From positions 1 through 64,000 of the IMG/VR virus record IMGVR_UViG_3300042890_002721: 64,000 nucleotides of DNA; one strand, given 5' to 3'. Shown here piece by piece: positions 971 through 10,112 of this stretch. Below the pieces are notes generated by a model. That model was not told the origin of the DNA. It was given only the letters and a program-made list of their open reading frames with translations, and ran no database searches. Each line of letters starts with the position of its first letter. The first letter of the stretch is position 1. A program made the position numbers and the translations under genes. This stretch comes from a virus.

Positions 971-980
971 TTAATGTTTC

Positions 981-1061
981 AGAATAGAATTTGGGAATTG
1001 AACCCTTTCATTTAAATTTATGCAAATTTTAATTTAACCTTGTGTTTGCTGAATCTATTCT
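981..1061 (-). other. degenerate tRNA-like element
   Basis: The ends form a perfect 8-bp stem (AGAATAGA with TCTATTCT) and a T-arm-like GGGTTCAATTCCC lies near the 3' end. The centre can fold an anticodon-like arm with loop TTGCATA (Cys GCA), but one stem pair is broken. Spacing between the T-arm and acceptor is about 3 nt too long for a normal tRNA. It is most likely a decayed tRNA gene or a tRNA-like processing signal. Confidence 0.3.
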
Positions 1062-1066
1062 TTTTA

Positions 1067-1137
1067 GTAGCGAATCTGGAGTCGAACCAGCCCTTCGGGT
1101 TATGAGCCCATTATGCAACCACTTACACCATATCACA
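1067..1137 (-). tRNA. tRNA-Met(CAT)-like gene with unpaired acceptor stem
   Basis: A D-arm with GTGG in the loop, an anticodon arm with loop CTCATAA (anticodon CAT) and a T-arm CTGG-TTCGACT-CCAG are all present. The 5' acceptor strand (TGTGATA) does not pair with the 3' strand (TTCGCTA); only about three of seven positions match. Its 5' end is 6 nt from the stop codon of the HNH endonuclease gene. I infer that the 5' end was overwritten by that insertion and the gene may be dead. A real tRNA with 5' editing is less likely. Confidence 0.45.
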
Positions 1138-1866: not shown

Positions 1867-1946
1867 AGTTTGACCAGAATCAATTTTTTTTCTTTATATA
1901 GTAGAGTTTAATTGCTGTAATGATTCTTTTGTCAATATCTTATCTC

Positions 1947-2132
1947 AAGGTGTAAGTTCGTTTTTATTTTACATGACTAACGTGTACATGGTAGTAGATT
2001 TTACATGCCCTCACAACATGTTCAGTTTTATTCAACGAACAACCACACCTAAGTGACTGCTTTTTTGTGTATAGAGACTGGACTCTTCCATCTTAGAATT
2101 TGTAGTTTTTGTTCGTTTGCTGAACACACCTT
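1947..2132 (-). ncRNA. candidate structured RNA upstream of the tRNAs
   Basis: There is no ORF here. The 5' segment (plus-strand 2122-2132) pairs with the 3' segment (1947-1959): AAGGTGTGTTC with GAAC, 2-nt bulge, ACACCTT. An inner 8-bp helix joins 2109-2116 with 2035-2042 (ACGAACAA/TTGTTCGT). A strong promoter begins 50 nt upstream (2182-2212) and the tRNAs follow on the same strand. I compared it with RNase P and 6S RNA and found no convincing match, so the class is unknown. Confidence 0.4.
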
Positions 2133-3157: not shown

Positions 3158-3527
3158 TGGTGGAGATGGGGGGAATCGAACCCCCGTGTTGAATATTCTT
3201 CAAAAGCCTTCTACATGTTTAGGTCATGATTTGCAAAACCATCCGAAACTTTACTACCTCTTTTTACCGTGTAATTTAAGCTTCACACCAGATGGATTAC
3301 CATTATCTTGGTGGATTACCACCATCGGTAGGTTACTACCATTAGCAATTATTAGGCAACTGCAACCTCTCCTCCAATTACAGACATGCTGCATTCGTCA
3401 AGGAAATTTTCTGATACGATGAAATCGTTGTCAATTCAATTGTTTAATAGACAGATTTAAGTGCTTCCAATCTAGCACTACATGCTTACCAATTACGACT
3501 ATAATCAGTCAATACCTTGGCATCCCC
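3158..3527 (-). ncRNA. ssrA: transfer-messenger RNA (tmRNA)
   Basis: A complete one-piece tmRNA. The ends form a tRNA-like acceptor, GGGGATG with CATCTCC, with a G3-U70 pair (alanine identity), then A and an encoded CCA. The T-arm is CGGGGG-TTCGATT-CCCCC. The 5' half has the conserved TAAGCATGTAG block. The tag frame ends GTT GCA GTT GCC TAA TAA (3349-3366). A likely resume codon is GGA, giving tag (A)GGEVAVA at 3349-3375, similar in shape to host GE...ALAA tags, but the same frame stays open upstream to 3432. It rescues stalled ribosomes and tags the products for ClpP-type proteases. A host-type promoter lies at 3601-3631. Confidence 0.95.
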
Positions 3528-8115: not shown

Positions 8116-8364
8116 TTAAGCTTGTTCAATTGTTATTTCTTCAATGTAATTTTTGTATTCATCTTTGGTTAATGTAGAAGGGAAAGATGTTAATAAAACC
8201 ATATGGATTCGTTCTCTTTTAGCTTCTTCACCAATTTCAGTAAAAGCTGAAACTCTAATATCACCTTCCATAAGGTATATCAAATATTCACTTATTGTTT
8301 TATTTCTAAAGTTTTGACTAGAATATTTGTCAATCTCTTTAATTATAATCTTTTTATCAATCAT
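8116..8364 (-). CDS. hypothetical protein, 82 aa
   Basis: A helical protein with a charged N-terminus (MIDKKIIIKEIDKY) and no motif I recognise. It is the first of three small genes transcribed leftward (8364 to 7574). A TAACTTTG box lies 34 nt upstream at 8399-8406, but no TTG is found 20 bp further, so the promoter is weaker than others here. Confidence 0.55.
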   Translation of the reverse strand: MIDKKIIIKEIDKYSSQNFRNKTISEYLIYLMEGDIRVSAFTEIGEEAKRERIHMVLLTSFPSTLTKDEYKNYIEEITIEQA

Positions 8365-8398
8365 TTTTTAAATTTAAATACTTCGTTATTTTTATATT

Positions 8399-8406
8399 CA
8401 AAGTTA
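8399..8406 (-). promoter_or_regulatory. -7 box TAACTTTG without -33
   Basis: Matches TAnnTTTG, but the position 20 bp upstream lacks TTG. Confidence 0.35.
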
Positions 8407-8440
8407 CTTAAATTAAACTATAGTGTAAATACTAAAAACA

Positions 8441-8470
8441 AAAAAACCCCATAAATTATGAGGTTTTTTA
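8441..8470 (-). terminator. terminator of the 168-nt RNA
   Basis: An AT-rich stem of about 12 bp (AAAAAACCTCATAA with its complement, one G-U pair) is followed on the minus strand by seven T. It lies directly after the structured RNA at 8473-8640. Confidence 0.75.
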
Positions 8471-8472
8471 AT

Positions 8473-8640
8473 GACTTGTTACAAGATACGGGGGTTTTTA
8501 CTTCTAACCCAGTAGAGAAGTTTGCCAATTTTAAAAGAAAGGTCTTGACAACCTACAGTGGAATCTTTAGGACTCCTTCATTTATGTAGCTATATTTGTT
8601 TTTTTTTTTGGTTGCAGAATGCATCTTTAAAAAACAAGTC
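8473..8640 (-). ncRNA. structured RNA beside Ro60-like gene, candidate Y RNA
   Basis: A 168-nt non-coding stretch lies between two terminators. Its ends pair perfectly (GACTTGTT with AACAAGTC). After an internal loop of 7 and 4 nt the helix resumes (GATGC with GTATC). Inside are a nested hairpin closed by CTACA/TGTAG with GGAGTC/GATTCC at its tip, AGGT/ACCT with a 7-nt loop, and CTTCT/AGAAG. A terminal helix broken by an internal loop is the general plan of Y RNAs, which bind Ro60 proteins, and the Ro60-like gene is immediately upstream on the same strand. The fold is seen in the sequence; the Y-RNA role is inference. No tRNA-like module was convincingly found. Confidence 0.55.
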
Positions 8641-8649
8641 AAATAAAAA

Positions 8650-8675
8650 TGAGTGACCAGTTACCCGACCACCCA
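8650..8675 (-). terminator. terminator of the Ro60-like gene
   Basis: A 9-bp stem with three G-U pairs (TGGGTGGTC with GGTCACTCA) has an 8-nt loop and is followed on the minus strand by TTTTTATTT. It starts 10 nt after the stop codon at 8685. Confidence 0.65.
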
Positions 8676-8684
8676 TTAATAATA

Positions 8685-10112
8685 TTATACTGTAACAGCA
8701 GCGTAACGCTCAGAGTCAATAACACTCAACATCATAGATATTGGAGTCATGTCTTTCCCACCTAACAAATTAGTAAGCAATGCTGGGCTGAACCCAGATA
8801 CCAATGCTGTACCTTCTTTATCGAAACGTACTGGTTTGTTGTTATCACCTCTTGATTGGATGTTCCAATATACCAACTTAGGCATTGTGTACCCAGCTTG
8901 AGCATAAAGAGATTCAACCATATCTTGAGCAGTCCACCCACGAACACTACCACAATTGAATTCCATGTCTGATAACATAAGAATCATTGTTGGCATTTCT
9001 TCTGGTGCAACATTTGACTCAACAGCTTTAGTTAAAAGCATTCTAAACGCTTTTTCAACATTAGTGTCGTACCCAACTGGACCTTGGATTTGTCTGTATC
9101 TCTCAGACAAACTACCTTTAAGGTATTGTAGTGTTGGGTTAGATGTGAACGTGATGAACGCATCTTTGAAGGGACCTTCGTTTCTTTCTGAGATGTATAA
9201 CCCCAAAGAGATTGCTACATCCATACAAGTTACGTTAGCATTTTGACCAGCTGGAGAACCCATTGACCCAGAAACGTCTACCATTGGTAAAAGTCTCTCG
9301 TTGTTACCTTCCATGTAGTTAGGCAAAGCATCCCATTGTACGTTAGCACCTTTGGTATTACCAGTCTTCATGTTTTTAACGATGTCGTATGGGTATACTG
9401 CACCAGCATTGATTTTAGCTTCACCTTTCTCAACACTTGTCAAGTAAGCTTGGAAACGCTCTAAATCATTTTTAGAGAAAGCTTTCATTAAATCACTCAT
9501 TGCTTTTGAAGGCAATTTAGAGTAATCGATTTTAGAGAATTCTCTAGAACACATTAATTGCTCAACAGTGTTAGAGTTTTCAACTAATAACTTACGGTAC
9601 TCTTTTGGAGATAAACCTAAGTGTTTTCTAAGTGCAGACGCTTGTCTTTTCTTATCACGATTACCAACATTTGGACGTGGCATCCATTTAGCACAAAGAC
9701 CATTTTTATCAGCTAAACCAGTAGCTATTAATGATAATGCTTGGTTTTCCAATGGGGTACCAACCAACACTAAAAGGTCATCCCATCTACCGTATTCAGC
9801 AAATAAACCTAAGTTTTTTGCAAGAGTTTCAGTACGATTTTCAGCCAAATAAGTAACGATATCTCTAAAGATTTGTCTTTCACCAGCACCACCACGTACA
9901 TCACGAGCCCAAAATAACAAACGCATAGCTGTTAATTGATTTTCACCAAAAGCTTTCGTAAATGCATTTATAAGACGAGTCTTATCTTGACCTCTCATCG
10001 CACCAATTTGGAAGAACAAGTCAACACAAAGGTTTAAAGATGATGAATTAGTTACCATACCGTTTTCAGTATAAGAATTTTTTGTTTGCATAGCTTTTAA
10101 TAATGTACTCAT
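8685..10112 (-). CDS. Ro60-like protein (DUF2828: TROVE-like plus vWA), 475 aa
   Basis: The N-terminal ~260 residues are helical repeats typical of DUF2828/TROVE proteins (FWARDVRGGAGERQIFRD; ALRKHLGLSPKEYRKLL). The C-terminal ~200 residues form a von Willebrand A domain with an intact metal site, DVSGSM near residue 277, and a later LSDMEFN strand. Ro60 proteins of this architecture form a ring that binds misfolded RNA and Y RNA. DUF2828 itself has no proven biochemical role. The gene has its own promoter (10141-10171) and terminator, and a structured RNA follows it. Codon use is somewhat richer in C and G than its neighbours, which hints at separate acquisition. Confidence 0.85.
   Translation of the reverse strand: MSTLLKAMQTKNSYTENGMVTNSSSLNLCVDLFFQIGAMRGQDKTRLINAFTKAFGENQLTAMRLLFWARDVRGGAGERQIFRDIVTYLAENRTETLAKNLGLFAEYGRWDDLLVLVGTPLENQALSLIATGLADKNGLCAKWMPRPNVGNRDKKRQASALRKHLGLSPKEYRKLLVENSNTVEQLMCSREFSKIDYSKLPSKAMSDLMKAFSKNDLERFQAYLTSVEKGEAKINAGAVYPYDIVKNMKTGNTKGANVQWDALPNYMEGNNERLLPMVDVSGSMGSPAGQNANVTCMDVAISLGLYISERNEGPFKDAFITFTSNPTLQYLKGSLSERYRQIQGPVGYDTNVEKAFRMLLTKAVESNVAPEEMPTMILMLSDMEFNCGSVRGWTAQDMVESLYAQAGYTMPKLVYWNIQSRGDNNKPVRFDKEGTALVSGFSPALLTNLLGGKDMTPISMMLSVIDSERYAAVTV

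Follow-up and report, generated by a model that had tools for sequence, protein, structure and literature searches.

The current work concerns a 64,000-nucleotide (nt) stretch of viral DNA, i.e. positions 1 to 64,000 of the 72.6-kb IMG/VR record IMGVR_UViG_3300042890_002721 (hereafter the window), in which a gene for a 475-amino acid (aa) protein of the DUF2828 type is followed, on the same strand, by a structured non-coding RNA of approximately 169 nt. This RNA is firmly established as conserved, and it belongs to a large family of small RNAs in phages that had not been described before. Its members share a terminal module, being a helix of approximately 6 bp, the motif NNNCHGCAA, an insert that can be of any type, the 3' strand of the helix and then NG. 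The explanation that we consider likely is that the phage encodes a Ro60-type ribonucleoprotein (RNP) with several Y-RNA-like partners, which are predicted to bind via the module; the latter probably represents the protein-binding part of such a particle.

A Ro60-like DUF2828 protein had been proposed from the sequence alone in an earlier model-generated reading of this locus (the original prediction), and this proposal is borne out by a fold match over the whole length of the protein. Pfam matches were obtained to DUF2828 (6e-37) and DUF7788 (4e-44), and an AlphaFold2 model based on 34 aligned sequences (predicted local distance difference test score 76, predicted template-modelling score 0.63) was compared by Foldseek with the PDB, where the matches at E<0.001 were exclusively Ro60/TROVE structures. 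The top matches were a Trove domain (9kop), the Ro60 of Thermus phage phiLo (9l5y) and Xenopus Ro60 (1yvr), together with 2i91 and 1yvp (E 2.7e-9 to 3.9e-7 over about 500 columns), and they included Ro autoantigen structures both with and without RNA. The model has the overall organization of Ro60/TROVE proteins, namely a helical-repeat ring followed by a vWA-like domain. As modelled, the full-length Ro60 fold is a solid assignment, and on the same basis DUF2828 is a Ro60-fold family, sister to TROVE and outside the reach of the Pfam TROVE model. The phiLo Ro60 resembles the modelled protein in overall fold (TM-score about 0.58, 18% identity); unlike the window phage, phiLo gave no DUF2828 match and its genome contains no modules above chance. 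TROVE proteins of some jumbo phages have previously been described as RNA-repair platforms (PMC7824862). A literature search for DUF2828 returned plant papers only, and the DUF2828-type proteins of phages (682 records, corresponding to hundreds of phages) are annotated as hypothetical or RNA-binding, with no known partner.

The ends of the adjacent RNA (Table 1) are joined by an outer helix of 8-9 bp (8640-8633 with 8480-8473), an internal loop and a further helix of 7 bp (8627-8621 with 8489-8483), as predicted for its paired ends and for the helix resuming after the internal loop. The region had also been described as bounded by terminators, and terminator-like hairpins are present on both sides of it (2 found versus 0.1 in shuffles); since the 5' hairpin is missing in several relatives (loci L012, L025, L031, L034, L039 and L042), it is not regarded as defining the RNA. 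Folding of the single window sequence was weak (z -2.1, with 2 of 200 shuffles as good), and as this is only modestly above shuffled sequences, comparative evidence had to decide. In an alignment of 26 sequences, the 15 pairs that make up the module helix and a pseudoknot are paired in 97.4% of cells; 10 of these pairs, and 34 cells, have changed on both sides, none of 500 shuffles was as good, and sliding the partners by 1-3 columns reduces pairing to 41-54%. Compensatory changes in homologous loci, which had been set as the test of the predicted structure, are thus plentiful, and this covariation of helix and pseudoknot indicates that the structure of the RNA is under selection. The 3' side of the RNA follows the pattern CTTC-N5..7-GGGT-TA-GAAG-TAAAN-GCCC, readable as an H-type pseudoknot, the second stem of which occurs in the compensatory types GGG/CCC, GAG/CUC and AGAU/AUCU. 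The three hairpins of the original prediction were only partly recovered: CUUC/GAAG is conserved, albeit within the pseudoknot, and the GGAGUC/GAUUCC hairpin is unseen in relatives. A possible further pseudoknot of the window RNA (GUAGG/CCU-UAC), noted by visual inspection, is not put forward here. The description of the RNA as Y-RNA-like is sustained by its conservation and covariation, and by a shared end helix with conserved flanks which closes a variable insert.

Table 1 Features of the window, with positions given along its 64,000 nt and the evidence on which each feature is based.
Feature	Position	Strand	Evidence
DUF2828/DUF7788 gene, Ro60-fold protein as modelled, vWA-type DVSGS sequence, 475 aa	8685..10112	-	Pfam, AlphaFold2, Foldseek
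Conserved structured RNA with shared terminal module, ~169 nt	8473..8641	-	homologues in ~30 loci, covariation
Outer helix 5' strand GACUUGUU, partner 8473-8480	8633..8640	-	
Outer helix 3' strand AACAAGUC	8473..8480	-	
Module helix 5' strand AAGAUGC, partner 8483-8489	8621..8627	-	6 of 7 pairs changed on both sides, 26 sequences
Module motif AUUCUGCAA (consensus NNNCHGCAA)	8612..8620	-	C..GCAA invariant in alignment; enrichment
Module helix 3' strand GUAUCUU, then conserved G (8482)	8483..8489	-	alignment, covariation, enrichment
Pseudoknot stem 1, CUUC (8517-8520) with GAAG (8501-8504)	8501..8520	-	97% of cells paired
Pseudoknot stem 2, GGGU (8507-8510) with ACCC (8492-8495)	8492..8510	-	96% of cells paired
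Terminator-like hairpin between gene and RNA	8648..8677	-	missing from some relatives
Terminator-like hairpin 3' of RNA	8441..8469	-	
Second module RNA, AAGGUGU-GUUCAGCAA ... ACACCUU-G, 5' of tRNA genes	1946..2132	-	module scans
Third module RNA, compact hairpin GAAUCA-UUACAGCAA...UGAUUC-UG, directly 5' of tRNA-Pro	1875..1926	-	strict scan, RF01414
Fourth module RNA, GAAUAG-AUUCAGCAA ... CUAUUC-UG, directly 3' of degenerate tRNA	980..1060	-	module scans

Eighty viral loci carrying a DUF2828 gene were taken for comparison, and in approximately 30 of these an RNA similar to that of the window is located behind the gene, with an AAGATGC/GCATCTT helix (and variants thereof) whose 5' strand is directly followed by the motif ATTCTGCAA. 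In the reverse direction, all records of IMG/VR were scanned by RNA-only patterns, ignoring the gene, which retrieved 41 loci; where at least 500 nt of upstream sequence was available for assessment, a DUF2828 gene was located 78-475 nt upstream in 35 of 35 cases, while the remaining six loci stop at a contig edge. The linkage of this RNA family to the DUF2828 gene is therefore solid. The expectation that related genomes carry the same RNA in this place holds for most loci and for every assessable case of the reverse scan, and fails for L040 and L045, where no RNA was seen behind the gene and where it appears to have been lost, and for L007, in which the RNA is truncated and lacks its 5' half. 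A second structured module RNA, of about 300 nt (GGATCG-GTACAGCAA ... CGATCC), is conserved across many contigs among loci L049-L079, at a distance of approximately 80-475 nt from the DUF2828 gene on its 3' side.

The inserts enclosed by the module include short loops, pseudoknots and circularly permuted transfer RNAs (tRNAs), and in more distant phages two or three copies with very different insides lie in tandem behind the gene. Within 1.5 kb behind 78 DUF2828 genes, 86 matches to the module were found, as compared to 2.1 +/- 2.2 for letter-permuted motifs, with counts near background inside the gene itself. The initial motif, which specified T at position 2, missed the copies of phages Samty and A511, both of which were recovered when it was relaxed to NNNCHGCAA. 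On the gene's strand, the relaxed motif identified 102 modules in 50 of 62 DUF2828 loci, versus 16.4 +/- 5.7 (maximum 29) for permuted motifs and 11 on the opposite strand. Positions outside the scan rule are likewise biased, G being present two bases past the stem in 87% of modules (21% in controls) and as first stem base in 71% (15% in controls), and 38 different stem sequences occur among 68 canonical matches with pairing kept. The motif was defined on the viral loci and phage S13, so that the other named phages, being added later, constitute a partly independent test. For counts in whole genomes a strict rule was adopted (an ungapped stem of at least 6 bp plus [TC]G), because a looser scan gave many chance matches in T4, T5 and KVP40.

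Modules are located beside or near DUF2828 genes in phages of hosts that are very distant from each other, namely S13, Felix O1, Klebsiella phage KP2025, Aeromonas phage 4_4572 (with eight module hairpins upstream of the gene), Campylobacter phage F341, Vibrio phages KVP40 and MS02, Staphylococcus phage CF9, Enterococcus phage EF1, Listeria phage A511, Mycobacterium phage Samty and Prevotella phage Lak-B9. The module is kept with DUF2828 proteins of only 27-37% identity (Lak-B9, CF9, EF1, A511 and Samty). Strict modules occur at chance level in T4, which like phiLo gave no DUF2828 match (1 versus 0.94), in phiLo (1 versus 0.34) and in the tRNA region of T5, where DUF2828 was not searched for (0 versus 0.30). 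The genome count of KVP40 (3 versus 1.9) is not significant on its own; its copies stand out by being on one strand and near the gene. As candidate relatives, the stable RNA species 1 and 2 of T4 were rejected as lacking the module, as were the named stable RNAs of T5, a strict scan of that region having revealed none.

The window itself contains three further module RNAs in addition to the one beside the gene (Table 1). The fourth module RNA directly follows a degenerate tRNA-like sequence (1068-1137, minus strand; 24 bits, below the cut-off) with a mismatched acceptor stem. The original prediction of one structured RNA beside the gene was correct as far as it went, and missed the wider RNA family as well as the links to Class I RNAs, tRNA introns and permuted tRNAs that are described below.

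Under the explanation favoured here, the product of the gene would form a Ro60-type ring protein, and the adjacent RNA would be one among several partners of Y-RNA type that this phage encodes. Recognition by the protein is predicted to be directed at the terminal module, i.e. the helix of approximately 6 bp with an (A)A/NG internal loop on one side and NNNCHGCAA on the other, and the insert would act as the effector part, represented by the pseudoknot domain in the window and elsewhere by a domain resembling tRNA or by a short loop rich in A. Such an arrangement would parallel that of Y RNAs, where Ro60 is bound via the basal stem, leaving the variable part to bind nucleases or to gate the ring. 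Ro60/TROVE proteins hold Y RNA at the outer rim of the ring and accept RNA ends in its hole. We infer that the module RNAs are transcribed and bound by the protein, the role of which would most likely be to handle or protect phage tRNAs and other RNAs in infection. In this way DUF2828 proteins would be assigned a candidate partner RNA, together with the element by which it would be recognised.

In YrlA RNA, the stem formed by the two ends binds the Ro60 relative Rsr, and a domain that resembles the D, T and acceptor arms of tRNAs binds PNPase (PMC8394870). The phage RNAs share with this system a Ro60-fold protein gene with RNA genes beside it and an end-to-end helix closing a modular insert, and the window RNA has both the long closing stem and the adjacent Ro60-type gene. 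One or two modules each in S13, Ci1, Felix O1 and KP2025 enclose a circularly permuted tRNA, in the order T arm and 3' acceptor strand, short linker, 5' acceptor strand and D arm, and it is at its anticodon arm that this tRNA opens into the helix of the module. These module-enclosed tRNAs are located at L084 5140-5302, L090 8133-8288, L085 8456-8592 and L086 7690-7985, and in S13 the CCA end is encoded. The Rfam YrlA model (RF02553, cut-off 69 bits) aligns over its full length, below that cut-off, to RNAs of KP2025 (40.1 and 34.3 bits) and to a sequence in Samty (37.9 bits, E 2.7e-8 per genome) which follows the Ro-like gene at a distance of 129 nt. The agreement with the model lies in the tRNA-like part of these RNAs and does not extend to the terminal stem. 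When the YrlA model was applied to the window RNA (8380-8700), no match was obtained even at E≤5, nor was one found in its own genome, so that by sequence the window RNA is no member of the YrlA family, a relationship for which the Rfam check had been suggested. Rfam families searched with the window RNA, at gathering and permissive thresholds, gave terminator-like chance matches only. The phage terminal helix carries NNNCHGCAA and NG in place of the YrlA basal-stem consensus. What the module of the window RNA encloses is a pseudoknot domain, with no tRNA-like part (D, T or acceptor arm). Judging from their sequences, the phage RNAs and YrlA are of shared design and have a different recognition stem.

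A second resemblance is to the Class I RNAs of dictyostelids, which are about 60 nt in length, have their ends paired in a 6-bp stem, carry an 11-nt motif by the 5' strand and a variable remainder, start with AAG, end with CUGU, and have been reported as absent outside dictyostelids (PMC7919456). The corresponding Rfam family, RF01414 (consensus GAUCUC-CUUACAGCAA-...-GAGAUC-UG), surfaced in the same Rfam search as YrlA, and its best match over the phage records is the third module RNA of the window, which the model covers over its full length (34.1 bits, with E 3.3e-6 for the genome), all phage matches being below the cut-off of 41.5 bits. In 4_4572, MS02, CF9, KVP40, A511, Felix O1 and KP2025 the better RF01414 matches coincide with independently found modules. 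A lone match in T4 (24.3 bits, 132052-132103) was rejected as a chance occurrence without a proper stem; single matches at that level therefore mean little, and it is the coincidence with modules that counts. The likeness, as seen in the short forms, comprises an end helix of approximately 6 bp, the pairing of which is kept in the module while its sequence changes, the 11-nt motif by the 5' strand (CCUUACAGCAA), an AAG start, a CUG end, an A/U-rich variable remainder and many copies per genome. Considering the motif positions T3, C6, C9, A10 and A11, five of five are present in the third module RNA (52 nt) and four of five, with A at position 3, in the main RNA, which at approximately 169 nt is far longer than Class I RNAs. 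The latter, unlike the phage RNAs, are known only from social amoebas, have a DUSE promoter element and are associated with an RRM-type binding protein. The likeness of the short module RNAs to Class I RNAs may reflect common descent, transfer or convergence. A further-reaching proposal, of which we are somewhat more doubtful than convinced, is that both would form one class bound by DUF2828-type Ro60-fold proteins, a third Ro60-type RNP branch beside Ro60/Y RNA and Rsr/YrlA which would have spread through tailed phages; in some T4-like phages the binding module would have been relocated to the anticodon arms of tRNAs and to permuted tRNAs. The occurrence of the same design as in Class I RNAs beside a phage Ro60-fold gene predicts the kind of particle which they may form.

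The module is also present, itself circularly permuted, inside tRNA genes. In six tRNA-like genes (of S13, Ci1, Ahp1 and cyanophage B23; interrupted genes are located at L091 10337-10450, L100 7866-7975, L084 4896-5138 and L090 7893-8125) the anticodon arm is interrupted by 38-48 nt consisting of the module's 3' strand, UG, a short loop, the 5' strand and the motif, the latter being varied in B23. These inserts may serve as a tether on tRNAs or as a true splicing element, and raise the question as to whether phages splice or permute tRNAs via the module. The main alternative to the Ro60-type RNP, which we judge improbable, is that the module serves in splicing or circularisation and not primarily as a protein tether, acting as a small intron in tRNA genes, with transcripts ending inside the intron in permuted tRNAs and closed RNAs; the product would be a tRNA or small circular RNA, with DUF2828 acting in its assembly or quality control. 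ARAGORN at default settings called none of the six interrupted tRNAs and all six upon removal of the insert, including a tRNA-Asn(GUU) after removal of exactly 40 nt, though these calls are the best among many deletions tried. Rejoining the permuted tRNAs of Ci1 (Leu UAA) and of KP2025 (Ser GCU) likewise leads to tRNA calls, but that of S13, once joined, has no canonical anticodon loop. Genes for RtcB and an RNA ligase near DUF2828 in A511 would be in keeping with splicing, as would the enigmatic tRNA introns reported for Lak phages (PMC6784885), given that Lak-B9 has both DUF2828 and a module; these Lak introns are likewise small unexplained inserts; their description named neither a protein nor an RNA family, and they are likened here on that description only. 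Against splicing, most modules enclose short unstructured loops with no obvious product, and the tRNA-like domain on the Ro60-binding stem of YrlA requires no such reaction.

Two other explanations appear far less probable still. That the RNA is an ordinary element of the 3' untranslated region, or a terminator-processing element, travelling with the gene would suit the several relatives in which no terminator intervenes and the RNA begins no more than about 20 nt past the stop codon; this is, however, already largely refuted by module copies upstream of the gene (in 4_4572, A511, MS02, EF1 and Campylobacter phage F341) and by those of the window which are distant from the gene and near tRNAs, the inserts being mutually unrelated. 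Equally hard to credit is that the RNAs have nothing to do with the adjacent protein and act as decoys against host defence, e.g. against anticodon nucleases or systems that sense RNA: the many copies, fast-varying stems and inserts, and tRNA mimicry would be expected of decoys, but DUF2828 linkage is tight in phages of unrelated hosts, and conservation resides in the module rather than in the insert. The Ro60-type RNP with module-bearing partners has, for its part, several observations weighing against it. The Pfam TROVE model gave no match to the 475-aa protein, for which DUF2828 and DUF7788 were the only matches at E≤0.01; no module was found within 1.5 kb of DUF2828 in L040, L045, L096 and L101; recognition must have diverged, because the module motif differs from the YrlA basal stem; and many DUF2828 loci are rich in tRNAs, so that the module could belong to tRNA biology and not to the protein.

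Some other genes were also recorded. In nearly all close relatives an 82-aa gene without Pfam match (8116-8364, minus strand, in the window) is located 3' of the RNA; a separate promoter of Bacteroidota-like type (TTTACAC ... TAnnTTTG) precedes this gene, after the terminator of the RNA. In Vibrio phage MS02 (L102 9369-12759) a TerB/TerC/TerD gene set is present a few kb behind the DUF2828 gene. The window furthermore carries a phage-encoded transfer-messenger RNA (tmRNA) gene (3158-3527, minus strand; Rfam RF00023, 74.8 bits) that was unreported by ARAGORN, and in S13 and Ci1 the permuted tRNA seemingly has a tmRNA-like stretch on its 3' side.
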